DNA from: Ignavibacteria bacterium
Lineage (GTDB): Bacteria; Bacteroidota; Ignavibacteria; Kapaibacteriales; UBA4661
Direction: 5' to 3'
NCBI GenBank assembly: GCA_947459425.1
Contig: CANHDJ010000014.1
Coordinates: 1-64,000, forward strand
Length of the DNA stretch: 64,000 nt
The notes beneath the pieces were generated by a model. That model had not been told where the DNA came from. It made no database searches and saw nothing but the letters and a program-made list of their open reading frames with translations. This document shows, piece by piece, positions 47,797 through 63,821 of this stretch. The translations under genes were made by a program, and so were the position numbers. The stretch's first letter is position 1, and the number at the start of each line of letters is the position of its first letter.

Positions 47797-47850
47797 AGAT
47801 TGGGAACGACGAAGTGAGGAAAGAATATCATAGAGGGTAGTTGGCAACTG

Positions 47851-47968
47851 TTCAGGTATCGGACGAGGGTCTGCCTTCTTAGGCAGGCTCTCGTTTCTGA
47901 AGACCGCGACCTTATGTGCCGTATCGTACCCAAGAGCCTCGCTAAGAAGCGAGACCCTCGAACCTGAA
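47851..47968. repeat. Cloverleaf palindromic repeat, copy B
   Basis: Outer stems TTCAGGT/ACCTGAA (47851-47857/47962-47968) and CGAGGGTCT/AGACCCTCG (47864-47872/47952-47960) enclose arm 1 (CTGCCT-TCTT-AGGCAG, 47871-47886), a central arm GGCTCT/AGAGCC (47886-47891/47933-47938) and arm 3 (CTCGCT-AAGA-AGCGAG, 47938-47953). Arm 1 is identical to copy C, and arm 3 differs from it by a compensatory pair. It lies between dnaN and recF. Confidence 0.85.
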
Positions 47969-47996
47969 TAGTTCCTTTTACCCTTTTACCCATTCC

Positions 47997-49124
47997 CTAC
48001 AATCGCACCGGCATCACCAGCATCAAAACATCATCGGCTTCTACGTCATCGCGGAGCGGCTTCATCAGGGCAGCGCGATTTGGGTTAGAGAAGGTCAGCA
48101 CAGCAGCATTCACGCCATCGTCGTTAAGGTGCGCCAGGGCTTCTTCGAGATAGCGGTGATTGAAGCCGATTTCAAATGCTTCGCCCGCATAATCGCAGGT
48201 AATTTCTTCTTGCGCTTTGTTGCCTGTTTCTTGGTCTTCGGCGATGACCGTAATTTTATTCGCGCTGAGGGCAAAACGAACTTGTTTGGTGTTGCTGTTG
48301 GAGAAAAGTGCCACACGCTTAACCGACGAAATAAGTTCCGACGTGCCGACGCGGGCAAATTTATCGTTACCCTGCGGAATAACGCTCTCGTAAGGCGGGA
48401 AACGCTCGTCAATAACGCGGGTAATAATCGTGGAAGTTCCCGTTGTGAATTTTGCGTGTGTGTCGCTCACCAGCATCACCAAATCACCTTCGATGCGCTT
48501 CAACAGGTCAACCGCACGAACAGGAATAATCACATCCGTCTTTTTATCCGCCAAAAGCGCACCGTTACCAGACTGAAGCATCACTTTGACAAGACGATAA
48601 CCATCGGTGGTAACAGCATTGATACGGGTTGTGTCGCATTCAAAGAGCATACCGGTCATAGCAGGACGATATTCGTCTCGGGAAGCCGCAAACGAAGCCA
48701 CTTTCGCAATCCGCATTGCGTCTGCGCCCGGAATCTGAATCGTCGTTCCGGTAGAAAAATCCGGCACCGACGGAAATTCCTGCGCATCCAGACCATGCAG
48801 CACATACTCGCCAAAGTCAGTTTTGAGCGTAATTTTGAACGATTTGCCTTCCGCACTAAAGGTAATGCGCCCCGCATTGCCAAGCGCTTTGACAATATCC
48901 GCCAATTTGCGTGCCGGCACAAGCAATTCGCCATTCGATGCGCCATCAACCGTGAGCGTGGCAATAATGGTCAATTCTTGGTCGGTGGCGGTAATATTCA
49001 ACGTGGAACCATCCAAACGAAAATGGAAATTTTCCAAGACTGGCAAGGTGGATTTTGGCGGAACGGCTTGGAGAGCGGATTGCAGGACTTTTTGGAGGTC
49101 GGGCAAAGCAACGGTAAATTTCAT
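47997..49124 (-). CDS. dnaN: DNA polymerase III sliding clamp (beta subunit)
   Basis: A 375-aa beta clamp with three similar domains. 'MKFTVALPDLQKVLQSALQA' starts the protein, 'DEYRPAMTGMLFECDTTRIN' lies in domain 2, and the C-terminal 'KPLRDDVEADDVLMLVMPVR' and final L form the partner-binding pocket. It tethers polymerase III to DNA. GAGGAAAG precedes the start, a good Shine-Dalgarno. Upstream, dnaA would be expected but a divergent psd gene is found instead; recF follows downstream. Confidence 0.97.
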   Translation of the reverse strand: MKFTVALPDLQKVLQSALQAVPPKSTLPVLENFHFRLDGSTLNITATDQELTIIATLTVDGASNGELLVPARKLADIVKALGNAGRITFSAEGKSFKITLKTDFGEYVLHGLDAQEFPSVPDFSTGTTIQIPGADAMRIAKVASFAASRDEYRPAMTGMLFECDTTRINAVTTDGYRLVKVMLQSGNGALLADKKTDVIIPVRAVDLLKRIEGDLVMLVSDTHAKFTTGTSTIITRVIDERFPPYESVIPQGNDKFARVGTSELISSVKRVALFSNSNTKQVRFALSANKITVIAEDQETGNKAQEEITCDYAGEAFEIGFNHRYLEEALAHLNDDGVNAAVLTFSNPNRAALMKPLRDDVEADDVLMLVMPVRL

Positions 49125-49176
49125 AACAGACTTTCCTCAATGCAAAATGAAATGTTGGAAGAAATGTGATATTTGC

Positions 49177-49228
49177 GTAAGTTTTATCGTTTTTGCTGAC
49201 GCAGTATTTTGCGTCACATCAAACTTAC
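49177..49228. promoter_or_regulatory. Nested dyad in the dnaN/psd divergent region
   Basis: TGACGCA/TGCGTCA (49197-49203/49210-49216) is nested inside GTAAGTTT/AAACTTAC (49177-49184/49221-49228). Both stems are perfect. The dyad lies in the 132-bp gap between the divergent dnaN and psd starts and could be an operator acting on either promoter. No DnaA boxes are present. Confidence 0.45.
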
Positions 49229-49256
49229 AATTTACGAAAAAGTCAAGATATACACT

Positions 49257-49916
49257 ATGATTACTCGCTACGGTTACGATAACTTCCTCGCCCTGATTGC
49301 GGGCGGCTTTGCGCTGATGACCTTTGGTCTGTGGTCGGATATTCCTATCTTGAAAGGTGTTTTGGTGCTGCTCGGCGTGATAATATGCCTGTTCGCGTGT
49401 TGGTTTTTCCGCAATCCCAAACGTACCCCTCCTCAAGAAGCACTCAGCAACGATGCCGTCGTCATAGCCCCCGCCGATGGGAAAGTGGTGCAGATTATCA
49501 CGCTGGACGAACCGCGCTTGATTCAAGGAAAAGCCCGCCGCATTAGTATTTTCCTCTCGCCGCTTGATGTCCACGTCAACCGCGTTCCGGCAAATGGGGA
49601 AATTATTTTTTCTGATTATCAGCCCGGAAAATTTCTCGTCGCTATGGATCACCGTGCTTCCGAGGAAAATGAGCAAACCATTATCGGGCTTCGCAATAGC
49701 AAGGGCGCTCTGCTTTTTAAGCAAATGACGGGCGCACTGGCACGGCGCATTGTGAACGAAGCAAAGCCCGGAGACCGCTTCAAAGCTGGTGACGAATTTG
49801 GCATGATGAAATTCGGCTCCCGGATGGACGTGATTGTGCCGGAAGGTACGCAAATACTGGTCAAAGAGGGTGATCGCGTTGTCGGCGGAGAAACGCTGCT
49901 CTGTCGCTTGGTCTGA
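49257..49916 (+). CDS. psd: Phosphatidylserine decarboxylase proenzyme (short type)
   Basis: A 219-aa short-form Psd from the ATG at 49257. Two hydrophobic segments lie in the first 50 residues. 'FLSPLDVHVNRVPANGEI' carries catalytic histidine residues, and self-cleavage is expected at G187-S188 in 'MMKFGSRMDVIVPEGT', which makes the pyruvoyl group. It forms phosphatidylethanolamine at the inner membrane. It is followed 66 bp later by comEC. The serine-transferring partner pssA is not in the window. Confidence 0.93.
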   Translation: MITRYGYDNFLALIAGGFALMTFGLWSDIPILKGVLVLLGVIICLFACWFFRNPKRTPPQEALSNDAVVIAPADGKVVQIITLDEPRLIQGKARRISIFLSPLDVHVNRVPANGEIIFSDYQPGKFLVAMDHRASEENEQTIIGLRNSKGALLFKQMTGALARRIVNEAKPGDRFKAGDEFGMMKFGSRMDVIVPEGTQILVKEGDRVVGGETLLCRLV

Positions 49917-49982
49917 CGCGCCTCTCCGCGCCCGTCCAACAGGAGTGCGAACGCAGTTCGCCGCTCGTTTCCGCAACGAACT

Positions 49983-52238
49983 ATGCACCAAAAACCGCAT
50001 ATAACCTCGCTTCGTCAACTTCCCGCACTCAGACTGCTCCTTCTCTGCTGTGCGGGAATGTGCGCAGGATTTTTTCTGCCAACCGCACCAATCCTCAGTT
50101 TCAGCGCCCTTGCACTCGTTGGCGGATTTCTCGTTCTTGGTGGAAAAATTGTTAAAAAAAACATTGAAAAAGATTTTGAAAAAAAGCTACTCGAAAGGCA
50201 AACGGCGCTATCGCGCACCGTAACGACTCGCTTCCACACCGCTACGGTACTTGCTTACACCTGTGCCGCATTTGCACTGGGCGCTCTTGTCGCCAAAGAA
50301 GCCGAAAGTACGCGCTTGGACATTGGTATTCCCGACCAGACGAGTATTATCGCGCCTCAAATGCCGACCGTCCTTCGTGGTGAAATTCTCCGCATTCTGC
50401 GCCGCGACTCGCTTTCAACACGCCTTCTTGTGCGTGGCATTGTTGACACGAAAGCGTTTCCGCGACTCCATGATGCAACCGTGCTGCTTACCGTCCGCCC
50501 TGCTGCGTCCAAACACCCAATGACCGCCGTCATGGACGATTTACGCGCCGGAACAAGTATTTATGCCGTTGTGAGCGCCCGCATCCCGCGCCGCGCCCTG
50601 CTTCCAACGGATATTGATGAAGCCTACTACGCCGCCTCGCTCTCCGCCTCGCTTTTGGCACAAACCGATATGCAGCACCTCGCCATTACCGCCGAAAACC
50701 GCACATTCCAAACATTCCTCGACAAAGCCGCCCGTGCGCTCGAACACCGCATCACCACACTCTTTCCTGCCGAAACAGCACCATTTGCGCTGGCATTACT
50801 CACGGGAAACACCGCCCATCTTGACCTTGCCACCAAACACGCTTACAGCCGCACGGGAACCATCCACATAGCCGCAGTAAGCGGTTTGCACCTGAGTTTA
50901 GTTGTGGCGATTGTCCTTGTGCCGTTAGCATTTGTACGCCGTCCGCACGTGCGTTGGTTCTTGGCTGTTGTGGCGATTGCCGCGTTTGTGCTGTTTACGG
51001 GCGCAGCAGCATCGGCGATGCGGTCTGGTGCGATGGCAGCATTGCTTTTGCTTACGTTCGCCGAAGAGCGCCGCGCTGTTTTGCTCAACGTTGTGGCGCT
51101 GAGTGTCGTGCTGGTGCTGGTCTGGCAACCCGCAATGGTGTATTCGATAGGCTTCCGAATGTCGGCGGCGGCAGTTTTTGGTATTGCGCTTCTACTGCCG
51201 CTTTTCGAGCAAGGTTTTATGCGGCTTTTGGGCATACGCACACCGCGTTTTGCCAACGATTTTCCCGTGCGCAAGCGCCTTGCTCAGATGCTTGCCGTGA
51301 CGAGTGCCGCATCGGTGGCGAGTGTACCGATTTCCGCGTGGTACTTTGAGACGACCTCACTTGTGGCGCTGCCTGCAAACCTTGTTGTTGTGCCGCTCAG
51401 TTCCGTCGCCATGCTCTACACATTGGCAAGCGTGGCGTTCTCAACCTTCTGGCAGGGCGGAGCGGAGCTTTTCGCCCAAACAGCGCATCAATCCTTGCAC
51501 TTGATGAATAGCCTCAACACCATTGCCGCCGCGCCCAGATTTGCGGCTATCGAAGGACGTTGGGCTTTTGGAGTTGCCGTAGGTTTGTCATTTGGAATGG
51601 TCTATGGCGCATCGGCGCTGTCATGGCGGATATTCGCCTTTCGTTTTGTGGTACTTGCTCTCGCTGCAAGCGCCCTGGTGCTGATTCTCCGCGATACAAG
51701 CACCCAAGCAACCGTGCAGATTCTCCCGCGCGAACAGGTCGTCGCAGCGCTTGTGCCTTGCCGACGGCACACTTTCTTGCTTCTGCAAGACCGCCGCCTT
51801 GAAGGTGCAGCCGCCAAGCCCGATGCAGCATTGGAGCGCTATGTCGGGGAATACTGCCTTGCCGAACAAGATTCGTTGACGGTCTGCACAACGGGAGCGG
51901 CTTCGATGCTTATCGCTGCACGTCTCGGCACTCTTTTGGCGAATAGTCAAGCACAAAAAATCAGCACAAAGCCCATTGCAATGCGTGTTCTTGCGCAATC
52001 TCTTCTCTACAAAAACCCACGCTTTTTTGCAGCCTTGGACACCCTCGAAGCCCATTCTATCCGCGTTCTTTCGGCAACCGCAATGATGAAACGCGATAGC
52101 ACCGTGCTTCTCCGCGAGGAAATACCGCACAAGCAGCGTATCGTCTGGGATATCTGGCAAGGACGGTTACTTGTTTCGGATGAATACAGAAACAGGAATA
52201 TTGTGCTGCCCCAAGTACGAACTATGCAGGAATGGTAA
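49983..52238 (+). CDS. comEC: ComEC/Rec2-family DNA uptake channel protein
   Basis: A 751-aa multi-pass membrane protein. An N-terminal OB-like region (about 120-230) is followed by the ComEC competence domain with 'ALALLTGNTAHLDLATKHAY', 'GTIHIAAVSGLHLSLVVAIV' and many membrane helices. It should carry single-stranded DNA through the inner membrane. The C-terminal 160 residues are soluble but show no metallo-beta-lactamase His/Asp motif, so the nuclease-like domain present in many ComEC proteins is missing or replaced. No other competence gene is adjacent. Confidence 0.87.
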   Translation: MHQKPHITSLRQLPALRLLLLCCAGMCAGFFLPTAPILSFSALALVGGFLVLGGKIVKKNIEKDFEKKLLERQTALSRTVTTRFHTATVLAYTCAAFALGALVAKEAESTRLDIGIPDQTSIIAPQMPTVLRGEILRILRRDSLSTRLLVRGIVDTKAFPRLHDATVLLTVRPAASKHPMTAVMDDLRAGTSIYAVVSARIPRRALLPTDIDEAYYAASLSASLLAQTDMQHLAITAENRTFQTFLDKAARALEHRITTLFPAETAPFALALLTGNTAHLDLATKHAYSRTGTIHIAAVSGLHLSLVVAIVLVPLAFVRRPHVRWFLAVVAIAAFVLFTGAAASAMRSGAMAALLLLTFAEERRAVLLNVVALSVVLVLVWQPAMVYSIGFRMSAAAVFGIALLLPLFEQGFMRLLGIRTPRFANDFPVRKRLAQMLAVTSAASVASVPISAWYFETTSLVALPANLVVVPLSSVAMLYTLASVAFSTFWQGGAELFAQTAHQSLHLMNSLNTIAAAPRFAAIEGRWAFGVAVGLSFGMVYGASALSWRIFAFRFVVLALAASALVLILRDTSTQATVQILPREQVVAALVPCRRHTFLLLQDRRLEGAAAKPDAALERYVGEYCLAEQDSLTVCTTGAASMLIAARLGTLLANSQAQKISTKPIAMRVLAQSLLYKNPRFFAALDTLEAHSIRVLSATAMMKRDSTVLLREEIPHKQRIVWDIWQGRLLVSDEYRNRNIVLPQVRTMQEW

Positions 52239-52286
52239 CTGTAACGTTTTTTGCCCTACTGTCTTTTTCACAAGAACCCCAGCATT

Positions 52287-52352
52287 AAACCTTCTCGACC
52301 AAAATATCGTCCGTTGAAGAAGAAGGTTGCTACCCATCGAAACCGATATTTT
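52287..52352 (+). promoter_or_regulatory. Interleaved stems in the DUF6600 gene leader
   Basis: AACCTTCT/AGAAGGTT (52287-52294/52320-52327) and CAAAATATCG/CGATATTTTG (52299-52308/52343-52352) are perfect and interleave, the order expected for an H-type pseudoknot. They lie 58 nt before a clear GAGGAG ribosome-binding site and the ATG at 52410. Could be an RNA control element or two DNA operators. Confidence 0.35.
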
Positions 52353-52409
52353 GACCCCAAATTTCTGCCTAAATTATCATTCCCGATGCTTTTTTGAGGA
52401 GAACATCCC

Positions 52410-54437
52410 ATGAAACGATTCCCCGCTCTGGCAAACGTCTTGACGACGTTTCTCTGGGTATCCGCATTAACACTCGCTTTGAGCGCTTGCGTTACCTATG
52501 AATCATCGCTGCGCTCGCGCTACGGCAATAACGTACCACAGCAGCAGCAACCCTATTATGCGCCACAAAGCCAGCAAATACCGCCTTCCGGCACACCTCA
52601 ATACTACGGGCAGGGCTATAATCAAAATTACAATCAAGGCTACAACCAACGACCCAATCAAGGCTTTGGTCAGCCCGCTATGCAGAACCAATTCGCTGCG
52701 CCAATTACCTTTCAAAATTTTTACGACGAACTTGCCCCTTTTGGCGAATGGATAGACACCCGCGAACACGGCTTTATTTGGCGACCCTACGGTATCAATG
52801 CCGGCTGGCGACCCTACCTGCATGATGGGCGCTGGGTTTACACGGAATATGGCTGGACGTGGGCTTCCGATTATGTCTGGGGCTGGGCACCCTTCCACTA
52901 CGGGCGTTGGCGGCTTGATCCCTTCTATGGCTGGGTTTGGCATCCGGGTAATGTCTGGGGTCCGGCGTGGGTGGAATGGCGGTTTTGGAATGGAAATTAT
53001 TGCTGGGCACCATTGTTACCAGGAATCAATATTGGGATTGGCTTTCGTGGCGGAGACTACCACTGGTCGGCGTGGAACGTGGTTCCATGCCGTTATTTAA
53101 CCCAGCGCAGCATTTGGAATCACTGTTTGCCCTATACGCAAATCCATAACGGGATTCGCAACACCACGATTATCAACAATACGACGATTATCAATAACAA
53201 CACCTATTTCACCGGACCTGCCGTGAGCGATGTTGAGCGGTATTCGCCGAAAGTTGTTCCTCTGGCACTGAAAAATTTGAATAAAGTAGCCAGTTCAACC
53301 ATTGATGACAACAGCATCTCGCTCTACCGCCCCGATGTGACGGACAATGGCAGCAAAGCGCAAACAAGCGCCCTGCGCCCGCTTCAATCAACCCCCGCCA
53401 ATCAAGCATCAACAGGCAAAGCGGGTATGCTGCTCAACCAGACACCCGAAAATGCGGACAATATCGCCTCGCCAAAAAGCAATCCGATGAACCCGAATAC
53501 GCAGAGCCGCGACGCGAACAGCCCCTTTCTCACACCTGCTCCGGCGGGTAAAGCTACGCCCAATGCGCTTGGCGGCGAGTCAGGCAAAAATGGTGGAAAA
53601 GTGATGCCTATGCCAACACCGATTGAGGACGAGCGCCGCAGCCCTGCGTCGCCCAATGAGACAAGCGTTCCGAATACTCGCCCGACAAAACAAGCCGAGC
53701 AGCCAATACGCATCGAAGCGCCTTCTGGCAAGGTAAATCCGTATGCTATTCCACGCAAAACTGAGACAATACCGCCACCGCAAGAACAAGAACGCGGACA
53801 AAAAAGCACAGGCACTTGGCAACAAAGCGAAGAGCAGCGCCAACGCGAGGAGCAGCGCCTCCGCGATGAACAACAACGACGCGAATCGCAACGTCAACAA
53901 GAACAACTTCAGTTGCAAAAACAACGGGAAGAGCAGCAAGAGCGCGATGCACAACAGCAACGCGAAGAACAGCGTCAGCGCGAAGAACAACAACGCAGAG
54001 AACAGCGCTTGCAAAAACAACGCGAAGAAGAGCAGCAACGCGAGGAACAGAACCGCCAAGAGCAAACACGCTATCAAAAACAATCCGAAGAGCAACAGCG
54101 TCAACGCGAGGAACAACGCCAACGCGAAGAACAACAACGCAAAGAAGAGCAACAACGCCAACGCGAAGAACAACAACGCAAAGAAGAGCAACAACGCCAA
54201 CGCGAAGAACAACAACGCAAAGAAGAGCAACAACGCCAACGCGAAGAACAACAACGCAAAGAAGAGCAACAACGCCAGCGCGAGGAACAGCGCCAGCGCG
54301 AGGAACAACAACGCAAAGAAGAGCAGCAGCGCGAGGAGCAACGTCGTCAAGATAACCAACGAAAAAGCGTTCCTCAGAGCATACCGAAAACTGAAGGCGA
54401 AAAAGGACCTCCGCCTCCTCGTGAGTTTGGTTGGTGA
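52410..54437 (+). CDS. DUF6600-type lipoprotein with long Q/E/R coiled tail
   Basis: A 675-aa predicted lipoprotein: signal peptide with lipobox L-S-A-C27. A Q/Y/N/P-rich linker leads to an aromatic repeat domain (about 95-235) with 'APFGEWIDTREHGFIWRPY', 'GWRPYLHDGRWVYTEYGWTW' and 'VWGWAPFHYGRWRLDPFYGW', matching DUF6600. Residues 460-655 are almost only Q, R, E and K, a long charged helix containing an exact 13-residue tandem repeat (REEQQRKEEQQRQ). It is probably anchored in a membrane and may reach across the periplasm. Function unknown. GAGGAG precedes the ATG. Confidence 0.82.
   Translation: MKRFPALANVLTTFLWVSALTLALSACVTYESSLRSRYGNNVPQQQQPYYAPQSQQIPPSGTPQYYGQGYNQNYNQGYNQRPNQGFGQPAMQNQFAAPITFQNFYDELAPFGEWIDTREHGFIWRPYGINAGWRPYLHDGRWVYTEYGWTWASDYVWGWAPFHYGRWRLDPFYGWVWHPGNVWGPAWVEWRFWNGNYCWAPLLPGINIGIGFRGGDYHWSAWNVVPCRYLTQRSIWNHCLPYTQIHNGIRNTTIINNTTIINNNTYFTGPAVSDVERYSPKVVPLALKNLNKVASSTIDDNSISLYRPDVTDNGSKAQTSALRPLQSTPANQASTGKAGMLLNQTPENADNIASPKSNPMNPNTQSRDANSPFLTPAPAGKATPNALGGESGKNGGKVMPMPTPIEDERRSPASPNETSVPNTRPTKQAEQPIRIEAPSGKVNPYAIPRKTETIPPPQEQERGQKSTGTWQQSEEQRQREEQRLRDEQQRRESQRQQEQLQLQKQREEQQERDAQQQREEQRQREEQQRREQRLQKQREEEQQREEQNRQEQTRYQKQSEEQQRQREEQRQREEQQRKEEQQRQREEQQRKEEQQRQREEQQRKEEQQRQREEQQRKEEQQRQREEQRQREEQQRKEEQQREEQRRQDNQRKSVPQSIPKTEGEKGPPPPREFGW
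54121..54276 (+). repeat. 39-bp exact tandem repeat, four copies
   Basis: Four in-frame copies of a 39-bp unit start at 54121, 54160, 54199 and 54238; a fifth, at 54277, has diverged. Each encodes 13 residues of the lipoprotein tail. Such repeats expand and shrink by slippage and also create long spurious open frames on both strands. Confidence 0.9.
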
Positions 54438-54516
54438 TATTGATCCGTGTGTCGAGTGTCCTCGCTTCGCAAAACCGACAAGAATATTTGATGAAAAGTC
54501 TGTTATTGCGTAATTT

Positions 54517-54556
54517 GCCACAAAAGACGTTGTAATGCGCCTTTTGTGGCTTTTTT
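54517..54556 (+). terminator. Rho-independent terminator after the DUF6600 gene
   Basis: Perfect 10-bp stem GCCACAAAAG/CTTTTGTGGC (54517-54526/54541-54550) followed by six T. Confidence 0.9.
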
Positions 54557-54610
54557 CTGGGATTTTTTTGCTCGAATACCCAAATCATATCATTTTCTAC
54601 CATCGCAATT

Positions 54611-56554
54611 ATGGCAAAAACACTCGGTAAATCCGGCAAAACCAAACGTTCAAAATCTCTGCCATTTTATCAAAACCCTCGATTTCATGCGCTATTTGTG
54701 GCTCTTGTTGCACTCGTAATGTACGGGCAGACGCTTCGTTTTGATTTCGTTATGGACGATAAAATGGTCATTACCGACCACAAGACCGTACAACAAGGCT
54801 TTGCGGGCATTCCGACACTTGTCACACAAGATTCCTTTGCGGGATTTGATGAAAACTACGACCGCGCTGGACAGCGCAAAACCTATCGCCCCGTGTCGTT
54901 TATTTCTTTTGCTATCGAAAAACAGCTTTTTGGCAACAATACCGTTCTTGCGCACGGCATAAACATTGCCCTCTACGCTCTGACATTGCTTGTTCTTCTC
55001 GCCTTGCTTCGTGCCGTGTTCGTTGGGGAAGATGCGCCTAACCCGCCGTTTCGGGTGTACAATTTTCCGCCGCTTTTCCCGCTTGCCGTCACACTGCTTT
55101 TCGCCGTTCATCCAATACATATCGCGGTTGTGACCAATATCAAAAGCCGCGATGAAATCTTCGCGTTGCTGTTTGTGTTATTGTCATTACGATTTTTGTT
55201 GCAATACATTCGCTTGGAAACCGCACAAAATCTTGCCTTGAGTCTTGTTTTTTTTTCATTGGCGCTCCTTTCTAAGGAAAGTGCGGTGCTGATGCTTCCT
55301 GTCGTGTGTGGTTTTGTCTATACCGTTACAAGTCTTGACATGAAGCGGTTTGTAAGGATTTGTGCGCCATTTTTTGTGGTGACGGTGCTGTTTTTAACAG
55401 TATGGTTTGGGTTGGTTGGGCGCGTAGAAGAGGGTTTGTATGCCTATAAACTCCATAACCCTTTTGTAGGTGCAACCTTTGCAGAGCGCATTGCTACGGG
55501 CATGATGACGTTGGGGCTGTATTGCTTGAAGGCAATTTTTCCCATTACGCTTTCCGAAGGATATACCTACAATGCACTGCCCGTGGTTTCTTGGATGGAT
55601 GTAAGAGTGATTGCGGGATTTCTGGCAACTTCTTCGTTGCTGGTTTTCGGGGTGATACGCTTTTTGCGACGAGACGTTATCGGCTTCTCTATTCTTGCTT
55701 TTTTTGCTGGTCTGGCGATAGCGTCGAATTTGGTCGTTTATGCCGGAAGTATGTTTGGCGACCGCTTCCTTTATACGCCCAGTCTTTTTGCGGTATTGGG
55801 CTTCGTATGGTTGCTTTTTGAGGCGTTTGGTGCAGTGAAAAATGGCGGTAAAAACTTCCGTTTTGCGCCTGTTATGGGAATTATTTTGGTGGTGGCAATG
55901 TTATATGCTGTGCGAGGTTTTATGCGCCTTCCCGATTGGAAAACGGATTATGCCCTTCTTCAGTCAGACCACCGCGCTACGCCGGAAAGTATGATGACCG
56001 CCCGCAACTATGCTTCCCAGCTTATTCTTCGCGCCGGAAACACGGAAAACGACACCGAACGCGGCATACTCCTTGATGAAGCCGAAGTCGTATTGGCGAG
56101 GGCTTTGGCAACAGATTCGACTGCCGACCCTGCCGTCTATGACCTTCAATCGCTTTCGGCATTGCAGCGTGGTGACTTTGCACGGGCGATTGCTCTGGAG
56201 AATCGCGCATTGGCGCTGGATTCCGCAACGCGCTTGGCGATTCATCGCAAGCCGATTTTTAAGCGTAATTTAGCCTCGGCTTTTGTTTCGCGGAGCGCAA
56301 AGAGCATTAACGAAGAGCGTTTTGCCGAAGCCGTTGACGATTTGAAAGTCGCATTGCAACTGAATCCCAACAATGAAAACGCCTACATCAATCTTGGAAT
56401 GATTTTCGGACGGCAAAAAGAGTACAAAAAGGCACTTGGCGCTTTCCAAGCCGCATACAAAGTGAATCCCGGCTCAAAAGTCGCCCAACAATATATTTTT
56501 CATATTCAGCAAGCATTAACAGAGGAAGAGGCAGAAAAACCTCGTACTCCTTAA
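54611..56554 (+). CDS. TMTC-like GT-C glycosyltransferase with TPR tail
   Basis: A 647-aa membrane protein with about ten membrane segments and a soluble C-terminus. The first loop 'LRFDFVMDDKMVITDHKTVQ' carries the acidic pair typical of lipid-sugar-dependent GT-C enzymes, and 'YRPVSFISFAIEKQLFG' and 'HPIHIAVVTNIKSRDEIFAL' match the TMTC O-mannosyltransferase family. Residues about 480-640 form tetratricopeptide repeats ('NENAYINLGMIFGRQKEYKK') that could bind the protein acceptor. It may glycosylate exported proteins, but the sugar cannot be stated. Confidence 0.82.
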   Translation: MAKTLGKSGKTKRSKSLPFYQNPRFHALFVALVALVMYGQTLRFDFVMDDKMVITDHKTVQQGFAGIPTLVTQDSFAGFDENYDRAGQRKTYRPVSFISFAIEKQLFGNNTVLAHGINIALYALTLLVLLALLRAVFVGEDAPNPPFRVYNFPPLFPLAVTLLFAVHPIHIAVVTNIKSRDEIFALLFVLLSLRFLLQYIRLETAQNLALSLVFFSLALLSKESAVLMLPVVCGFVYTVTSLDMKRFVRICAPFFVVTVLFLTVWFGLVGRVEEGLYAYKLHNPFVGATFAERIATGMMTLGLYCLKAIFPITLSEGYTYNALPVVSWMDVRVIAGFLATSSLLVFGVIRFLRRDVIGFSILAFFAGLAIASNLVVYAGSMFGDRFLYTPSLFAVLGFVWLLFEAFGAVKNGGKNFRFAPVMGIILVVAMLYAVRGFMRLPDWKTDYALLQSDHRATPESMMTARNYASQLILRAGNTENDTERGILLDEAEVVLARALATDSTADPAVYDLQSLSALQRGDFARAIALENRALALDSATRLAIHRKPIFKRNLASAFVSRSAKSINEERFAEAVDDLKVALQLNPNNENAYINLGMIFGRQKEYKKALGAFQAAYKVNPGSKVAQQYIFHIQQALTEEEAEKPRTP

Positions 56555-56613
56555 TAGCTCGCACATAAAAACACGTTCATTCTTCTATTTTTTTACATCA
56601 ATTCCCAATCACT

Positions 56614-57147
56614 ATGAATAAGCAAGTTTTGGAAGGTTTGAACAAGCAACTCAATATGGAGTTTGCTTCGGCGTATGTCTATTTGGCAATGTCGTCATAC
56701 TTTGAAAGCATAGATTTAGAGGGCTTTTCCGATTGGTTTAAGGTTAAAGCGCATGAAGAAATGTTCCATGCCATGAAAATTTATGATTATATCGGCGATC
56801 GGCGTGGGAAACGTGATTTGAGCGCTATCGGGCTGCCCGTCAAGACGTGGAAATCTCCTGCTGCTGCTGCTGAGGATGCGTACAAGCACGAATGTAAGGT
56901 TTCTGCGTCCATTCACAACGTCATTGATATTGCGCGTCAGCACAAAGACCATTCGACCGAAGCCTTTTTGCATTGGTTTGTCATTGAGCAAATCGAAGAA
57001 GAAGCGGAAGCCGACCGTATTTTGCAAAAAGTGAAAATGGTTGCCGAAAATCCCGGTGGTATGTTCATGTTGGACAATTACATGGCTGAACGTGCGAAGG
57101 TAGATGCCGCAAAAGTTGGCACAGAGTCTGGTGGCGAGGAAGAATAA
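56614..57147 (+). CDS. ftnA: Non-heme bacterial ferritin
   Basis: A 177-aa ferritin monomer; 24 copies form an iron-storage shell. Ferroxidase ligands are visible at E16, E49, H52 and E93, with 'KAHEEMFHAMKIYDYIGDR' around the second helix and Q126 in 'WFVIEQIEEEAE'. The acidic tail 'GTESGGEEE' is an extension. Its leader is pyrimidine-rich without a Shine-Dalgarno; a half-copy of the 15-mer seen at 3149 lies about 40 nt upstream. A strong hairpin follows the gene. Confidence 0.95.
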   Translation: MNKQVLEGLNKQLNMEFASAYVYLAMSSYFESIDLEGFSDWFKVKAHEEMFHAMKIYDYIGDRRGKRDLSAIGLPVKTWKSPAAAAEDAYKHECKVSASIHNVIDIARQHKDHSTEAFLHWFVIEQIEEEAEADRILQKVKMVAENPGGMFMLDNYMAERAKVDAAKVGTESGGEEE

Positions 57148-57169
57148 TGTTCAGTATAATCCCGTGTAA

Positions 57170-57201
57170 CCCGCTCTACACCGAAAAAGGCGTAGAGCGG
57201 G
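57170..57201. repeat. 13-bp hairpin downstream of ftnA
   Basis: Stem 57170-57182/57189-57201 with one mismatch and loop GAAAAA. There is no T-run, so it is not a standard terminator. TTCAG occurs 20 nt before it, as in the cloverleaf family, so it may be a decayed copy. Confidence 0.6.
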
Positions 57202-57276
57202 AATACGCAATGGTTCTTCGCAGTCAATAGTTAATCTCAATTCTCAACTTTCCTCGTTTTTCTCTCCAAAAGCCGC

Positions 57277-58167
57277 ATGAACACACGCAACAAAGGTATT
57301 ATTCTCGCCGGAGGAAGCGGAACGCGCCTCTATCCGCTCACGTCGCTTTTTAGCAAACAGCTTCAACCAATTTATGACAAGCCGATGATTTATTATCCGC
57401 TTGCAACGCTGATGTTAGCTGGTATTCGGGATGTTCTTATTATTTCCACACCCATCGACACACCCAATTTCGAGCGGCTTTTGGGCGACGGAAAACAGTG
57501 GGGCGTGAATATCCAATACAAGGTACAACCGGAGCCGAAGGGTATTGCTCAGGCATTTATTTACGGACGAGAGTTTATCGGTAACGACCAAGTGTGCTTG
57601 ATATTAGGCGATAATCTTTTTTATGGGAAACTCAATTTTTTGCGTCAGGCGCTTACTGCCAACGTCGGCGGCACAATTTTTGGTTATCCGGTCAATGACC
57701 CGGAGCGCTATGGAGTCGTCGAATTTGGCGCAGATAAGCGGGTTTTGAGCATTGAGGAAAAACCGAAAAAACCGAAGTCGAATTATGCCGTACCGGGGCT
57801 GTACGTCTATTCATCGGATGTTTGCGATATTGCCGCCAATCTTGAGCCAAGCCCACGCGGAGAACTTGAAATCACGGACATCAACAACACGTATTTGCGG
57901 CAAGACCGTCTGCACGTCGAGGTAATGGGGCGCGGACTGGCGTGGTTAGACACCGGCACACCAAAAAGCCTTTTGGAAGCGAGTATGTTTATTCATACGA
58001 TTGAAGAGCGACAGGGCTATAAAATCGCGTGTTTGGAGGAGATTGCTTTGCAACAGGGTTTTCTTACGCCCGAAGAATGGCTGCAAACCATCCAGCGCCT
58101 TCCCAAAAGTCCATATAAAGATTATTGCTTGCGTATTTTTGAAGAGTTTCGCGGGCAGCATTTGTGA
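57277..58167 (+). CDS. rmlA: Glucose-1-phosphate thymidylyltransferase
   Basis: A 296-aa nucleotidyltransferase that makes dTDP-glucose, the first step of dTDP-deoxysugar synthesis. 'GIILAGGSGTRLYPLTSLFS' at the N-terminus binds dTTP, and 'KQLQPIYDKPMIYYPLATLM', 'LILGDNLFYG' and 'VEVMGRGLAWLDTGTPKSLL' are RmlA signatures. Length is typical. It stands apart from rmlB (39 kb) and the RmlC-like cupin (12.5 kb); rmlD was not seen. Confidence 0.96.
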   Translation: MNTRNKGIILAGGSGTRLYPLTSLFSKQLQPIYDKPMIYYPLATLMLAGIRDVLIISTPIDTPNFERLLGDGKQWGVNIQYKVQPEPKGIAQAFIYGREFIGNDQVCLILGDNLFYGKLNFLRQALTANVGGTIFGYPVNDPERYGVVEFGADKRVLSIEEKPKKPKSNYAVPGLYVYSSDVCDIAANLEPSPRGELEITDINNTYLRQDRLHVEVMGRGLAWLDTGTPKSLLEASMFIHTIEERQGYKIACLEEIALQQGFLTPEEWLQTIQRLPKSPYKDYCLRIFEEFRGQHL

Positions 58168-58305
58168 TGTACTCTGCTTCCATTGCATATTCGCCAGCGC
58201 TTTTCAGGGTCTCCTTACCTGAAGTTACGAAGGAGTTTTTCGACTTTCTTCAGTACAAGTTTCAGTTGTTTTTTTGTAGAGTTTCAAAAAATGTTGTTTA
58301 CCAAC

Positions 58306-58317
58306 CAAACGTTTGGT
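58306..58317. promoter_or_regulatory. Putative TetR operator
   Basis: Perfect 12-bp palindrome CCAAACGTTTGG, 28 bp before the tetR start. Position and symmetry suggest autoregulation by the TetR-family protein that follows, possibly also controlling the thioesterase and fabF genes. Confidence 0.6.
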
Positions 58318-58345
58318 AAATTTGTGTAACATTCAAAAACACACT

Positions 58346-58906
58346 ATGCCTCTTCAAAAAATAACCCGTGAAGAAATTGTCAGCAAATGTGTCGAGCGCT
58401 TTCGGACGCATGGCTTTCATCGAACAACCATGAACGATCTTGCCGAAGTTTGTGGCTTACAGAAAGGCAGTTTTTATCATTATTTCACCTGCAAAGACGA
58501 GATTTTGCAGGAAGGCTTGGTGCAGACCCGCGATTATTTTGCCGAAAAAATTTTCACGATAGGATATGACAACGCTGTTATGCCTGAGAAGCGCATGAAA
58601 CAGATGCTAGAAGAGCATATCGCCATTATGTTGCGTGGCAATGGCGGTTGTCTGATAGCCAATATCACCGCAGAGGCGCTCAATGCTATGCCCGACGTTG
58701 CGCCGCTTTTGCGAGAAATAAGCGACCAGTGGCACGCCGCGTTGACGCATATTCTCCGCACACGCCGCGACGTGGAAGCAGCACGAGAGCTTGCGTGGTG
58801 CATTATGCAGGACATCGAAGGCGCGGTAATGCTTTGTCGCCTATATGACACGACACAATTCGCAACACAAGCAGTAGAGCGCTCTTTAGCCTACTGCTCT
58901 GGTTGA
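58346..58906 (+). CDS. TetR/AcrR-family regulator
   Basis: A 186-aa repressor from the ATG at 58346. The N-terminal helix-turn-helix is clear: 'IVSKCVERFRTHGFHRTTMN' then 'DLAEVCGLQKGSFYHYFTCK'. The C-terminal ligand domain is of the TetR_C type seen in regulators of acyl-CoA or efflux genes ('GNGGCLIANITAEALNAMPD'). The thioesterase and fabF genes follow within 30 nt each, which suggests control of acyl-chain metabolism. Ligand unknown. Confidence 0.9.
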   Translation: MPLQKITREEIVSKCVERFRTHGFHRTTMNDLAEVCGLQKGSFYHYFTCKDEILQEGLVQTRDYFAEKIFTIGYDNAVMPEKRMKQMLEEHIAIMLRGNGGCLIANITAEALNAMPDVAPLLREISDQWHAALTHILRTRRDVEAARELAWCIMQDIEGAVMLCRLYDTTQFATQAVERSLAYCSG

Positions 58907-58933
58907 TTGTTTCTTACTATTTCATCGCAATAA

Positions 58934-59422
58934 ATGACACCAGAACAGACAGAATCCGCATCCAATCCCGTTTTGGAGTATTTTCGCTCACTTGTCGGGC
59001 AGGGTTTTGAGGACAAAAGCCTTTCTCCATTTGGCAGGTGGCTTGCCGGAACGCTGACGGCTGTTGATGTTGGGACACTTGAGGTCGAATTTACGGTGCG
59101 CCCGGAAATGCTCAATCCAGCCGGAACATTTCATGGTGGCGTTGTTGCCGCGCTGATGGACGATACCATTGGGGCAACAATTTTCATCCTTGGCAAGAAA
59201 AACTTTTTTACATCTGTAAATCTTGTTGTAGATTACTTCGCTCCGGCAAAAGTGGGTGAGCGCGTTATCGCAAAAACAGCGATTATCAAGGAAGGAGCAA
59301 AAATTATCAACGCGCAGTGCGAGGTGTGGAATCACGAGCGCAAGCGCCTTTTAGCACGAGGTACGACGAATTTGATGAGAATTGATACCGTCGTACCGGT
59401 GGCAGCAGCAATTAACGATTAA
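58934..59422 (+). CDS. PaaI-like hotdog thioesterase
   Basis: A 162-aa single hotdog-fold protein. 'PAGTFHGGVVAALMDDTIGA' holds the H-G-G active-site motif and the acidic residue on the following helix, as in PaaI/YbdB-type acyl-CoA thioesterases. The C-terminal strands 'VNLVVDYFAPAKVGERVIAK' complete the fold. It starts 27 nt after tetR and ends 30 nt before fabF, so it is probably part of the same transcript and may release acyl or aryl groups from CoA. Confidence 0.88.
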   Translation: MTPEQTESASNPVLEYFRSLVGQGFEDKSLSPFGRWLAGTLTAVDVGTLEVEFTVRPEMLNPAGTFHGGVVAALMDDTIGATIFILGKKNFFTSVNLVVDYFAPAKVGERVIAKTAIIKEGAKIINAQCEVWNHERKRLLARGTTNLMRIDTVVPVAAAIND

Positions 59423-59452
59423 AATCTTTTTGTTATCTCATTGTTCAGGATT

Positions 59453-60700
59453 ATGCAACGTAAAACTATTGTAATTAGCGGCATTGGCGCAATCACTCCC
59501 ATCGGAGAAGGCGTAGATGCTTACTGGGAAGGCTTACTCGCTGGCAAAAGCGGCGCTGTGCCTATTTCCGGCTTCGACACCGCCGACTATGACTGCAAGT
59601 TTGCCTGTGAAGTGCGAAATTTTGATGCGACAAAATACCTCGACCGCAAGTCATTAAGCCGCCTTGATAAATACTGTCAATTCGGTATCATCGCGGCAGA
59701 AATGGCAATGAAAGACGCGAAATTTCACCTACCCGATATGGATACGACGCGCATTGGCGTTGTCTTTGGCTCCGGTATTGGTGGGATGATTTCCTACGAT
59801 GCGCAGTTTCGCGGCTATATGGCTGCCGGTCCACGCCGCGTTAGCCCGTTCTTTGTACCGCAGATGATTCCCGATATGGCTGCCGGCATGATTTCCATCC
59901 GTAACAACCTTCGCGGACCGAATTATGCCACCGTTTCGGCGTGTGCGACCTCTCTCCACGCCATGATTGATGCCTACATGATTTTGAATCACGGCATGGC
60001 AGATATGATGATTTGTGGTGGCGCGGAAGCATCCATTACGCCGATGGCAATCGCGGGTTTTGGCAATATGCAAGCGCTTTCCACCCGCAACGATAGCCCA
60101 GAAACCGCTTCCCGTCCTTACGATAAAGACCGCGATGGTTTTGTGATGGGCGAAGGCGCAGGAGCATTTGTTGTCGAAACGCTCGAATCGGCACAAGCAC
60201 GGGGAGCGCATATTTACGCTGAAATCGCCGGAGTCGGCATGACGGCTGATGCGCACCATATGACCGCTCCACATCCCGAAGGTGAAGGCGCTCTTCGTGC
60301 GATGCAAATGGCAATGAATGGCGCTGGTATTACGGCGCAGCAACTTGATTATATCAACACGCACGGCACATCCACGCCGCTCGGCGATGTTGCTGAAATC
60401 ACGTCCATCAAAAAACTGTATGCCGAAAATACCGATGCACTCAGCAAGGTAAATATCAGTTCAACGAAGTCCATGACGGGGCATTTGTTGGGCGCTGCCG
60501 GGGCGATTGAATCTATCGCCTGTGTGAAGGCAATACAACATCAAATCGTACCGCCGACGATCAATGTTTTTAATCAAGATGAGCGCATTGATGTCAATGT
60601 CACGCCGAATAAGCCGCAAGAACGCTCCATTTCTTACGTTCTCAATAACGGTTTTGGCTTCGGTGGACACAATGCGACGTTGATTTTTAAGAAAATCTAA
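59453..60700 (+). CDS. fabF: Beta-ketoacyl-ACP synthase II
   Basis: A 415-aa condensing enzyme of fatty acid elongation. The catalytic triad is visible: C164 in '[11 protein letters not shown]', H304 in '[12 protein letters not shown]' and H344 in '[11 protein letters not shown]', with K339 nearby. Start at 59453 ('[19 protein letters not shown]') is the family start. It uses malonyl-ACP to extend acyl-ACP. It is the last gene of the tetR-thioesterase-fabF run and ends before a bidirectional terminator. An acyl carrier protein gene, often next to fabF, is absent. Confidence 0.96.
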
Positions 60701-60732
60701 ACTGAGCGGCAACGTATCTGCCGAATAACAAT

Positions 60733-60768
60733 AATGCCAAGAACAGTATTCGTACCGTTCTTGGCATT
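60733..60768. terminator. Terminator between converging fabF and HdrD-like genes
   Basis: Perfect 12-bp stem AATGCCAAGAAC/GTTCTTGGCATT (60733-60744/60757-60768) followed by a T-rich stretch on the plus strand and preceded by an A-rich one, so it can serve both strands. Confidence 0.8.
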
Positions 60769-60802
60769 GTTCTTATTGTTTGGTCTGGCGGGAGTACCAG
60801 CG

Positions 60803-62908
60803 TTAATTTTTTACCGCATCCAGCAAAATTTCGGATACATCGCGGACGTTGACATCATCCACTCTGCCTTTGTCCTTCACGCCATCATTCATCATCGTCA
60901 TACAAAACGGACAGTTCACGGCAATAGTGTTTGCGCCTGTTGCAAGGAGTTCTTCGGTGCGCTCAATATTGACACGCTTGCCGTCGTGTTCTTCCATAAA
61001 CATCCGTCCGCCGCCCGCACCGCAACAGAAGCCTTTGTCTTTGCTGCGTCCGGGATTGATAACCTTCAAGCCGGGAATGTCGGTCAACATAGCGCGTGGA
61101 GCCTCATATTCGTTGTTGTAGCGCCCTAAATAACACGAATCGTGGTAGGCAACAGCCGACGAGGAAACATTCTTGCCCGCAATCTTCAGTTTGCCCGATG
61201 CGGTCAAATCCTGAATAAATTGGGTGTGATGGAAAACTTCGTAATTGCCGCCGAATTGCGGATAATCGTTTTTCAGCGTATTGAGGCAGTGCGGACACGT
61301 CGTGACGATTTTTTGGACGTTGTAGCCGTTCATCGTTTCGACGTTCATTTTCACCAGCATATCGGCAAGGTACTCATTGCCGGAACGCCGAGCCGGATCG
61401 CCGGTACATTTTTCTTCCGAACCCAAAATGCGGTATTTCACACCCGCAATGTCCATCAACTCCGCAAATGCTTTCGTAACCCGCTTTGCGCGGTCATCGT
61501 AGCTTCCGGCGCAGCCAACCCAGAACAGCACGTCCATTTCCGGGTCGTCGGCGACCGTTTTGACGTTTGTGCCTTCTGTCCAATCGGCACGCTCTGAGGG
61601 CGAAAATGCCCATGGCGTAAAGCTATTTTCCATATTGCCAAATGCCGGTTGTACTTCTGGCGGGAAATTCGCTTCCATCAGCACAAGCGAGCGGCGCATT
61701 TCCACAATCGCCGGAACGTGTTCAATCATCACGGGGCATTCTTGTTGGCAAGCGCCGCAGGTAGTACATTGCCAGAGCGCCTCGACGGGGATATACTCAC
61801 CGATAAGGGGCTTTTGCCATGTTGCTTGTTCATCTGTTGTGAGAATTTTTTCAAACACTGCTTGCCCCATTTCTCCAGCTTCTTCGGGCTTTTTCCCTTT
61901 TGCCAAAAGCGTGGCAGATTCTTTTTCTTCCGCCGAACCGCCATTTTTGCTAAAAGCATCGAACTTCAGCATAAGTGGTGCTTTGTCCATGGTGCGGTCG
62001 TGAATAGCGACGATGATGGCGCGTGGGTCAAGCACTTTGCCTGTTTGGTTTGCTGGGCAAACGCTGGTGCAGCGCCCGCAGTGCGTACAGGTGTAGCCGT
62101 CCAAAAGCGTTTTCCACGTAAAATCCTCAATATCGCTTGCGCCGAATTTTTCTGCGCCTTCTTCCTCGAAGTTGATCGGTTTGAGGCTGTTTGGATAGGA
62201 TAAATTGCCAAAGAATGTGTTGGGAAGCGAGGTCAGAACGTGCAGGTGCTTAGAATACGGCAGATAGTTCATAAACCCGAAAACGAGAACCATATGCGCC
62301 CAGAAAAACACCTCGAAAATGAGGTGTGCTGCGCCTTGTGGAATAATTGTTGCAATGGCGCTGGCAAACGGACGCACCGCCCACGAAAAATCTGCGCCAA
62401 GGCTGATACGAGCAGAGTTTTGCAGCAAAATCGAAGTCACAATGCTGAAAATCGTAATGAGAATCAATCCCGCTTCTACTTTTTCGCCCTCAACCTGAAG
62501 ACGCGGTACTTTCGTCACATAGCGTCGCCAGAGTGCCGCCAGCGTGAGCAGCATAATCAAGCCGCAAAAGACATCAACCAAAATGGTGATACCAGAATAC
62601 AGTGGTCCCAGAAAATTCAGCGACCAGCCGTCATGCAAACCTTCCAAGATACCTTCTGTTGCCGATGCCAGCAAAATAAGAAAGCCCCAAAATACGCCCG
62701 CATGGATGGGTCCGGCGACTTTGTCGCGTAAAATTTTGCTTTGCCCAAAACCAACTTTGAGCAAAAGCCAGAGTCGCGCCGGAATATTGTCCAAGCGATT
62801 TTCGGGTTTGCCGAGTTGGAGATAGGAAATAAGCCGCCGCACATTGAAAACAATGCCGCCAAAAGCCGCCAGCATCACTAGCAGAAACACGATGTTTTTG
62901 ATGCCCAT
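60803..62908 (-). CDS. Membrane-anchored HdrD/GlcF-like Fe-S oxidoreductase
   Basis: A 701-aa fusion. The first 230 residues form a cytochrome b/NarI-like membrane domain with about six helices and conserved histidines ('GPIHAGVFWGFLILLASATE', 'FEVFFWAHMVLVFGF'). Two 4Fe-4S clusters follow: 'CTHCGRCTSVCP' near residue 276 and 'CTTCGACQQECP' near 380. Two CCG domains lie in the last third ('FWVGCAGSYDDRAKRV', 'GFCCGAGGGRMFMEE'). Such proteins pass electrons between quinones and soluble partners, as in electron-bifurcating or Etf-linked chains. AAGGAG precedes the start. No Etf genes are beside it. Confidence 0.9.
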   Translation of the reverse strand: MGIKNIVFLLVMLAAFGGIVFNVRRLISYLQLGKPENRLDNIPARLWLLLKVGFGQSKILRDKVAGPIHAGVFWGFLILLASATEGILEGLHDGWSLNFLGPLYSGITILVDVFCGLIMLLTLAALWRRYVTKVPRLQVEGEKVEAGLILITIFSIVTSILLQNSARISLGADFSWAVRPFASAIATIIPQGAAHLIFEVFFWAHMVLVFGFMNYLPYSKHLHVLTSLPNTFFGNLSYPNSLKPINFEEEGAEKFGASDIEDFTWKTLLDGYTCTHCGRCTSVCPANQTGKVLDPRAIIVAIHDRTMDKAPLMLKFDAFSKNGGSAEEKESATLLAKGKKPEEAGEMGQAVFEKILTTDEQATWQKPLIGEYIPVEALWQCTTCGACQQECPVMIEHVPAIVEMRRSLVLMEANFPPEVQPAFGNMENSFTPWAFSPSERADWTEGTNVKTVADDPEMDVLFWVGCAGSYDDRAKRVTKAFAELMDIAGVKYRILGSEEKCTGDPARRSGNEYLADMLVKMNVETMNGYNVQKIVTTCPHCLNTLKNDYPQFGGNYEVFHHTQFIQDLTASGKLKIAGKNVSSSAVAYHDSCYLGRYNNEYEAPRAMLTDIPGLKVINPGRSKDKGFCCGAGGGRMFMEEHDGKRVNIERTEELLATGANTIAVNCPFCMTMMNDGVKDKGRVDDVNVRDVSEILLDAVKN

Positions 62909-62953
62909 GGTTGAACTCCTTGTTTAGTTTTTGGTTATTGGTTGTTAGTTTTT

Positions 62954-63075
62954 GGTTCAGTGTTGAACGAGGGTCTGCCTTCTTAGGCAGGCTCTCAATT
63001 CTGAAGGGTATATCACGTGCTATGCGGCACTATACCGAGAGCCTTGCTAAGAAGCAAGACCCTCGTGCCTGACCA
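62954..63075. repeat. Cloverleaf palindromic repeat, copy C
   Basis: Outer stem ACGAGGGTCT/AGACCCTCGT (62967-62976/63057-63066), with TGGTTCAG and CTGACCA pairing at the edges (62953-62960/63069-63075, one bulge). Arm 1 CTGCCT-TCTT-AGGCAG (62975-62990) is identical to copy B. The central arm GGCTCTC/GAGAGCC (62990-62996/63037-63043) carries GGTATA/TATACC and GTGC/GCAC. Arm 3 CTTGCT-AAGA-AGCAAG (63043-63058) changes one base pair against copy B. It lies between the Uma2 gene and the HdrD-like gene. Confidence 0.86.
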
Positions 63076-63089
63076 GTTTTATCCCTTCT

Positions 63090-63821
63090 TTAACTTGTTT
63101 CCGGCTCTATGCCTAGCTTGCGGAGCTGCTCGGCGAGGCGCTCTGCCTTTTGACGCTCTGCCTCTGCTTTTTGACGTTCCGCTTCTACTTTCTGGCGCTC
63201 TACTTCGACATTGCGACGCTCTTCTTTGAGCATTGTCAATGCTTCTTGGTGCAAGCGCCCGATTTCTTCAAAAGCGACAAAAGCACGTCCATCGGGGCGA
63301 AATAACTGCACTTCATCGTTTTCCAGACCAAAGCGAATGCCTAGTCGCGGGCTTTGCCACGTTAGCATATCCTCAATCAACCTAAAGGCAACCCCTTCCC
63401 GCACGTAGCCGATAAGGTCGGCACGGTCGGGGTCAATGATGTAGTATTCTTCCACGCCGTAGCGGTCGTAGAATTGCTGCTTTCGCGCCATTTCGCCTGC
63501 TCGGTTGCCGGGCGACAGCACCTCGAACACCACCTGCGGCGCGATTCCGCCTTCTTCCCATTGTTTGTAGGAGCCTCTGTATCCTTTGGGGCGACCAAAA
63601 GCAACCATCGCATCAGGCGCAAGACGGATTTCGGGATGTCCTTCGACCGCATACCAGAGCAAGTCTCCGGCAACAAAAACATCGGGATTTTCGGCAAACA
63701 TCGTCGCCAACTCGCCTTTGATACTGGAAATCCAGTCAAATTGTTTGGTATTATCAGCCATCGGTTGCCCGTCGGAATCGGGGTAAAGAATTGATTGAGT
63801 TTTTGCCAAGGGTGAAATCAT
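63090..63821 (-). CDS. Uma2-family (DUF820) PD-(D/E)XK endonuclease-like protein
   Basis: A 243-aa protein. The nuclease-like core shows 'IRLAPDAMVAFGRPKGYRGS' (PD) and 'QVVFEVLSPGNRAGEMARK' (E-x-x), with 'YYIIDPDRADLIGYVREG' as the third conserved strand. The C-terminal 60 residues are a coiled coil built from repeats of 'VEAERQK' and 'AEAERQK'. Uma2 genes are often multicopy and scattered in filamentous and FCB bacteria; their function is poorly known. Cloverleaf copy C lies just 3' of it. Confidence 0.85.
   Translation of the reverse strand: MISPLAKTQSILYPDSDGQPMADNTKQFDWISSIKGELATMFAENPDVFVAGDLLWYAVEGHPEIRLAPDAMVAFGRPKGYRGSYKQWEEGGIAPQVVFEVLSPGNRAGEMARKQQFYDRYGVEEYYIIDPDRADLIGYVREGVAFRLIEDMLTWQSPRLGIRFGLENDEVQLFRPDGRAFVAFEEIGRLHQEALTMLKEERRNVEVERQKVEAERQKAEAERQKAERLAEQLRKLGIEPETS

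Follow-up and report, generated by a model that had tools for sequence, protein, structure and literature searches.

Inverted pairs of a covarying hairpin unit as probable REPINs in an Ignavibacteria genome

Paired hairpins at two intergenic sites

In a 64,000-nucleotide stretch of an Ignavibacteria bacterium genome (contig CANHDJ010000014.1, positions 1 to 64,000; hereafter the window), two repeats that we call copies B and C each carry two hairpin units, inverted with respect to each other, on either side of a spacer. We argue that B and C are REPINs of a system of repetitive extragenic palindromic (REP) units and REP-associated tyrosine transposases (RAYTs), that is, non-autonomous mobile elements made of two inverted REP hairpin units of ~30 nt around a spacer, and we put the probability of this reading at roughly 85%.

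Copy B sits between dnaN (47997-49124, minus strand; TIGR00663, 242.5 bits against a cut-off of 137.65) and recF (46651-47847, minus strand; TIGR00611 recf, 281 bits against a cut-off of 172), which it adjoins. Copy C lies upstream of the start of a CCG/4Fe-4S protein gene (60803-62908, minus strand; PF02754, 119.6 bits), with a Uma2 family gene on its opposite side (63090-63821, minus strand; PF05685, 54.5 bits), so that all four units of the two copies fall between genes called by protein models. Unit 1 of copy B (47864-47893, plus strand) has a TGCC/GGCA inner stem and the loop TTCTTA and scores 52.9 bits with the covariance model described below (E = 1.4e-8 in the window); it is followed by a 37-nt spacer (47894-47930) and by the inverted unit 2 (47931-47960, minus strand; inner stem TCGC/GCGA, 50.6 bits). 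Copy C repeats this arrangement with unit 1 at 62968-62997 (plus strand, 48.1 bits), a spacer of 38 nt (62998-63035) and an inverted unit 2 at 63036-63065 (minus strand; inner stem TTGC/GCAA, 51.8 bits).

An earlier note on this DNA had singled out B and C as the most alike of four cloverleaf copies, with an identical first arm and a compensatory change in the third, and the letters bear this out. The first arm, which corresponds to unit 1, reads GAGGGTCTGCCTTCTTAGGCAGGCTCTC at both 47865-47892 and 62969-62996, an identity of 28 nt; the third arm, within unit 2, reads CTCGCT-AAGA-AGCGAG in B and CTTGCT-AAGA-AGCAAG in C, such that a C-G pair has become a T-A pair around an unchanged AAGA loop. 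The note had also judged the likeness not to be chance, and we agree: on either strand both copies fold better than 200 of 200 dinucleotide shuffles (z -5.3 to -7.4), and sequences similar to copy C recur at ten places in the genome with E<=1.5e-5. The other two supposed cloverleaf copies were not recognized as members, given that a covariance-model search of the window returned four units, all in B and C, with the fifth row at E<=10 being the reverse strand of one of them. No Rfam family was found in the window at gathering scores, and a tRNA and tmRNA search of the window was negative.

A dispersed unit confined largely to one genus

We compared the genome of the window (G000, 86.6% complete) with nine family relatives (G001-G009), of which G002-G008 make up, together with G000, the eight genomes of the genus. 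The conserved object proved to be the hairpin unit of ~30 nt, CGAGG(G/C)TCTNNN-TTCTTA-NNNAGG(C/G)TCTCG, which occurs in duplicate, the two copies inverted and separated by a variable spacer. To describe its variation we assembled 109 units, 34 from G000 and 75 from relatives, at loci that the hairpin model had selected; the pattern used for the relatives admitted two alternatives at stem pair 5 (G-C or G.T) and two at pair 7 (C-G or T.G). The loop TTCTTA is present in 32 of these 109 units, with 19 loop variants overall, and in 95 of them the foot adds a 13th stem pair, against a mean of 70 and a maximum of 81 after shuffling.

The note had proposed a covariance model and a search of the genome and its relatives, and this approach yielded many further copies. 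BLAST of copy C against its own genome found 13 places, the ten mentioned above and three at E>0.6 that are possibly chance. A covariance model built from 31 aligned units (25 distinct), which were chosen partly by their pairing, gave at least 43 matches in the same genome at E<=1 and at least 37 at E<=1e-3, both counts being lower bounds as 150 of 1248 first-look candidates were scored. By position, the 37 units scored at E<=1e-3 resolve into 16 pairs and five singletons. The two units lie on opposite strands in 15 of 15 pairs (34 of the 37 units had a locus), and the spacers of these pairs range from 12 to 44 nt.

Because the 31 units had been selected partly by pairing, we also searched the eight genus genomes with a pattern blind to it, in which pairs 10-12 were free and pair 6 was free between G and C. 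This pattern matched 295 times in five of the eight genomes (tandem units may yield overlapping matches): 29 in G000, 13 in G002, 47 in G003, 192 in G004, 14 in G008 and none in G005, G006 or G007; a reversed control pattern had no match in any of the eight. When 119 genomes sampled from the order were searched, at least 13 matches turned up in each of five genomes of this genus and a single match in each of two others; judged by eye, none and one of the three inner pairs, respectively, pair in these two single matches. Copy C had no match at E<=0.01 among plasmids and phages, and one exact unit pattern was absent from viral contigs; as neither search produced a match, a phage or plasmid origin of the units is unsupported.

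Within the genome of the window, 16 of 34 units overlap no open reading frame (ORF) of at least 120 aa, although many of the listed ORFs may be spurious. An ORF of 827 aa or more, which by eye resembles a membrane protein, contains in frame a unit pair at 80081 and 80123 (within G000:C9:78624-81651) and stays open across both hairpins. In another locus (G000:C49:17114-20141, at ~18513-18642), tandem 25-nt repeats of half-units, GCGAGGCTCTCGCTCCTACGCCAAA, stand beside one full unit.

Covariation in the stem

Pairing in the stem is retained as its letters change. In the 31 aligned units 99.0% of cells pair (87.8% when shuffled) and both sides have changed in 27 cells (6.7 on average after shuffling); both values exceed every one of 500 shuffles, although relatedness among the copies, and the possibility that a pair moves as a whole, keep these shuffle numbers from being strict probabilities. 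Compensatory changes occur at stem pairs 1, 6, 10, 11 and 12. At pair 6, 80 of the 109 units have G-C and 25 have C-G; at pair 11, G-C is found in 59, C-G in 25 and A-T in 22. The pairing-blind matches show the same pattern: in 150 listed matches from G002, G003 and G004, 437 of 450 free inner-stem cells pair, compared to a shuffled mean of 262 and maximum of 284. Stems are thus not broken as often as loops vary, with 13 of 450 free stem cells unpaired and 19 loop variants among 109 units. Selection on the folded single strand of the unit, which the earlier note had suggested for B and C, is therefore well supported beyond these two copies.

This support extends to the unit and not to a cloverleaf. 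One may postulate that B and C are cloverleaf RNAs or DNAs held together by loop-loop contacts, and in both window copies the loops are indeed complementary and a middle arm is possible. That middle arm lies in the spacer, is not conserved, and is replaced by a different spacer in the G003 copy that lies downstream of dnaN; spacers vary from 12 to 44 nt, five of the 37 units are singletons, and the lowest-energy fold of each whole strand of B and C is one long hairpin with internal loops. The loop complementarity itself is real in B and C, but it recurs in only two of 15 pairs of the genome, both of them in the window, and it follows from the two arms being inverted copies of one unit. We accordingly rejected kissing loops, and a cloverleaf as the conserved form is highly implausible.

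Stem irregularity, foot and strand

Two positions of the stem are nearly invariant wobble pairs: pair 5 is G.T in 108 of the 109 units and pair 7 is T.G in 106. The complementary strand therefore carries two A.C mismatches, at pairs 5 and 7, around a single base pair. On this A.C strand the 5′ foot is GAAG in 30 of 109 units and AAAG in 18, making RAAG the commonest foot, and in 13 of 15 pairs of G000 the RAAG foot faces inwards. On the spacer side, the A.C strand carries GTAG or GTGG no more than 8 nt from the stem in 16 of the 109, above what shuffled flanks gave (5.0 on average and at most 12); CGTC was found within 6 nt of the stem on either strand in none of the 109.

This asymmetry bears on an alternative in which the units persist chiefly because, as transcribed intergenic sequences, they form RNA structures that act as mRNA stabilizers, processing sites or terminators, any mobility belonging to their history. 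Both B and C lie between co-directional genes and fold far better than shuffles, and on one strand the hairpin would be continuous as RNA through G-U pairs. In every one of the 15 pairs, however, the units lie on opposite strands, so each strand bears one G.U form and one A.C form; the sites also vary between close relatives, and the number of pattern matches differs widely within the genus. We therefore consider this explanation improbable, albeit less so than the other alternatives discussed here.

The two units of a pair also tend to differ in their stems. Pairs with the same stem number 0 of 15 in G000 (4.1 expected) and two of 18 in G003 (7.6 expected); in G004 there are three of 28 against 3.4 expected, which is within chance (90 of 192 matches used). 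As the G004 count is not significant, we do not regard heterodimers as a general law.

A RAYT gene flanked by units

Three genes with a Y1_Tnp domain were found in the genome of the window. One of these, encoding 180 aa at G000:C17:52704-53243 and thus outside the window, is a RAYT gene and is flanked by units, two to its left and two to its right. The REP/RAYT elements to which the earlier note had compared the repeats are thus the likely answer. The protein matches NCBIfam NF047646 REP_Tyr_transpos with E = 5.7e-18. An alignment of 11 proteins shows H54, H56 and Y116 unchanged throughout; the G000 protein has the HUH motif THFH, the motif YIHNNP at residues 116-121 and, placed by eye, FQ. 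Its sequence had no match at E<=0.1 among PDB sequences, whereas its predicted fold (mean pLDDT 89.4) best matches 4er8, titled a RAYT bound to a REP hairpin, with E = 1.1e-8 and 16% identity in the fold alignment; the 4er8 protein is presumably that of E. coli. IS608 and ISDra2 transposases matched this fold at 4.4e-5 or weaker, and tRNA-His guanylyltransferases at E = 1.2e-4 and weaker. The closest relatives among the matches listed come from Ignavibacteria and Candidatus Kapaibacterium genomes.

These observations also speak to a further alternative, namely that the units are the ends of, or miniature inverted-repeat elements derived from, an IS200/IS605-type or other insertion sequence of the same genome. 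Two further Y1_Tnp genes (140.2 and 133.4 bits) are indeed present. The examined flanks of both contain no unit (both loci are cut by contig ends) whereas the RAYT gene is flanked, and we accordingly set the IS200-type genes aside as the driver of the units. The fold of the RAYT is closer to 4er8 than to the IS608/ISDra2 transposases, and instead of the several near-identical transposase copies typical of IS200/IS605 elements, the 86.6% complete genome holds a single match to the RAYT at E<=1e-10. An insertion-sequence origin of the units is thus very unlikely. At one IS200-type locus (G000:C46:26335-28791), the transposase gene is followed by an adjacent gene that we take to be TnpB-like.

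Among the ten family genomes, RAYT relatives are present in G000, G003, G004 and G008, and units in these four and in G002; units therefore occur in four of four genomes with a RAYT relative and in one of six without (Fisher's exact p ~0.02, by hand arithmetic). In G004, the RAYT gene on contig C8 has five units upstream and two downstream in the locus examined. A second RAYT relative of this genome (G004:C1:198432-198974) is interrupted by one internal stop codon and has a unit on a single flank. Across the sample of the order, a RAYT relative was found in 14 of 119 genomes, and the unit was not matched in the ten of these that lie outside the genus, which agrees with the published account of each RAYT having REPs of its own (PMC6006769). 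Repeats of at least 14 nt common to both flanks of the gene were found for 20 of 27 RAYT relatives (25 of 34 before the list was filtered), compared with 10 of 317 control windows, though not all of these repeats were shown to be hairpins.

Presence and absence of the copies among relatives

We compared the region downstream of dnaN in G000 and G002-G008. The copy B site is occupied in G000 and in G003, where dnaN is 99% identical and the contig ends before recF; it is unoccupied in G005, G006, G007 and G008, in which a recF-like frame follows dnaN (by eye), and G004 and G002 have other DNA at this place. Copy C is missing at the matching place in G003 although the flanking gene is 100% identical. 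Elsewhere in the window, a gene for a PD-(D/E)XK nuclease family transposase (PF12784) lies just past recF at 45772-46605 (minus strand), and tandem 18/21-nt repeats occupy 53820-54371 inside an ORF (52410-54437) with a DUF6600 domain.

Relation to known REP systems

The earlier note knew of no named repeat of this form, but inverted REP pairs are already in the literature under the names REPIN and REP dimer (Bertels and Rainey 2011, PMC3116915; Di Nocera 2013, PMC3733652). As these accounts describe them, such elements share with the present units short palindromic sequences, inverted pairs, variable spacers and an association with RAYT genes, as well as frequent heterodimers with differing stems, alternative complementary stem residues and G-T pairs. 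The feet differ. Two REP superfamilies are defined by GT[AG]G or CGTC at the foot of the hairpin, the latter reported from groups that include Chlorobi and Bacteroidetes (PMC3733652); the present units have neither as a rule, and RAAG on the A.C strand is commonest instead. In the broader sense of a RAYT/REP system (a REPtron with its REPINs), the genome of the window has the dispersed palindromic unit, the inverted pairs and the unit-flanked gene for a RAYT-type Y1 HUH protein. The repeats therefore look like a further family of a known kind, inverted REP pairs with a RAYT, with clear covariation.

A further parallel may be found in TnpA-Y1 subclass 2.6 (RAYT group 5). In the classification of Quentin 2018 (PMC6006769), GT[AG]G is missing in this subclass and in class 3, and on either side of subclass 2.6 genes lie atypical structures, likewise devoid of GT[AG]G, that have copies elsewhere in the genome, as is the case here. 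The YIHNNP of the G000 protein fits the Y motif YIH[QN]NP given there, and its 180 aa are close to the median of 179. It departs from that description in having THFH and not NH[LIV]H, and by eye FQ in place of WQ, and its host lies outside Bacteroidetes proper; subclass 2.4, with NH[IFV]H and YIxNNP in the same source, is also possible.

For E. coli, TnpA-REP is described as processing single-stranded REP but not its complement, and as needing a 5′ GTAG and an irregular zone in the stem (PMC8266576). The present units resemble those REPs in being long hairpins with a conserved stem irregularity, and the best structural match of the associated RAYT is 4er8; they differ in that the irregularity consists of two A.C mismatches around one flippable base pair, and in lacking GTAG. 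By analogy with the requirements of that enzyme, the processed strand may be the one with the A.C mismatches at pairs 5 and 7, most often with a 5′ RAAG foot.

Proposed mechanism and points against it

The most likely explanation for these results is that the RAYT on contig C17 of G000 acts on B and C. It would most likely recognize the units as single-stranded hairpins, and would nick and rejoin them, thereby spreading the pairs. Going further, we tentatively suggest a lineage of RAYTs whose recognition code is its own, composed of two kept wobble/mismatch positions around a pair that may flip, a RAAG foot that replaces GTAG and mostly faces inwards, and a strong bias toward heterodimers, in which unlike units would leave each hairpin readable yet break the long hairpin that destabilizes DNA; this more specific proposal is possible but clearly less probable than the assignment of B and C to a RAYT/REP system.

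Several observations weigh against a RAYT/REP origin. The canonical GTAG foot is nearly missing, with exact GTAG in 3 of 109 units. Two of five covariation measures were reached by shuffles (pairs with both sides changed in 26 of 500, further pair types in 93 of 500), and as the wobble pairs were fixed in the pairing-blind pattern, their constancy rests on sets picked with the hairpin model. The RAYT of G000 scores 65.2 bits, under the NCBIfam cut-off of 80, and its Pfam score of 23.4 is barely over the cut-off of 23. G002 has 13 pattern matches yet no RAYT was found in it. The examined flanks of the RAYT relatives of G003 and G008 contain no unit (one G003 flank ends with the contig), and the G003 protein is 57% identical to that of G000 though dnaN of G003 is 99% identical; for these reasons, the co-occurrence of RAYTs and units is weaker than it appears, and the matching of enzyme and substrate in G003 and G008 is uncertain. 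Finally, no clean empty site for B or C was found among the relatives compared, in the case of copy C because the rest of the G003 intergenic stretch differs as well.

In the literature searched, we found no description of a REPIN/RAYT system in an Ignavibacteria/Kapabacteria-type lineage. If our interpretation is correct, the repeats would add to this lineage such a system with strong covariation, within a single genus that covers 0 to 192 pattern matches per genome, and they would permit a direct test of hairpin recognition by RAYTs that have no GTAG-tagged substrate.

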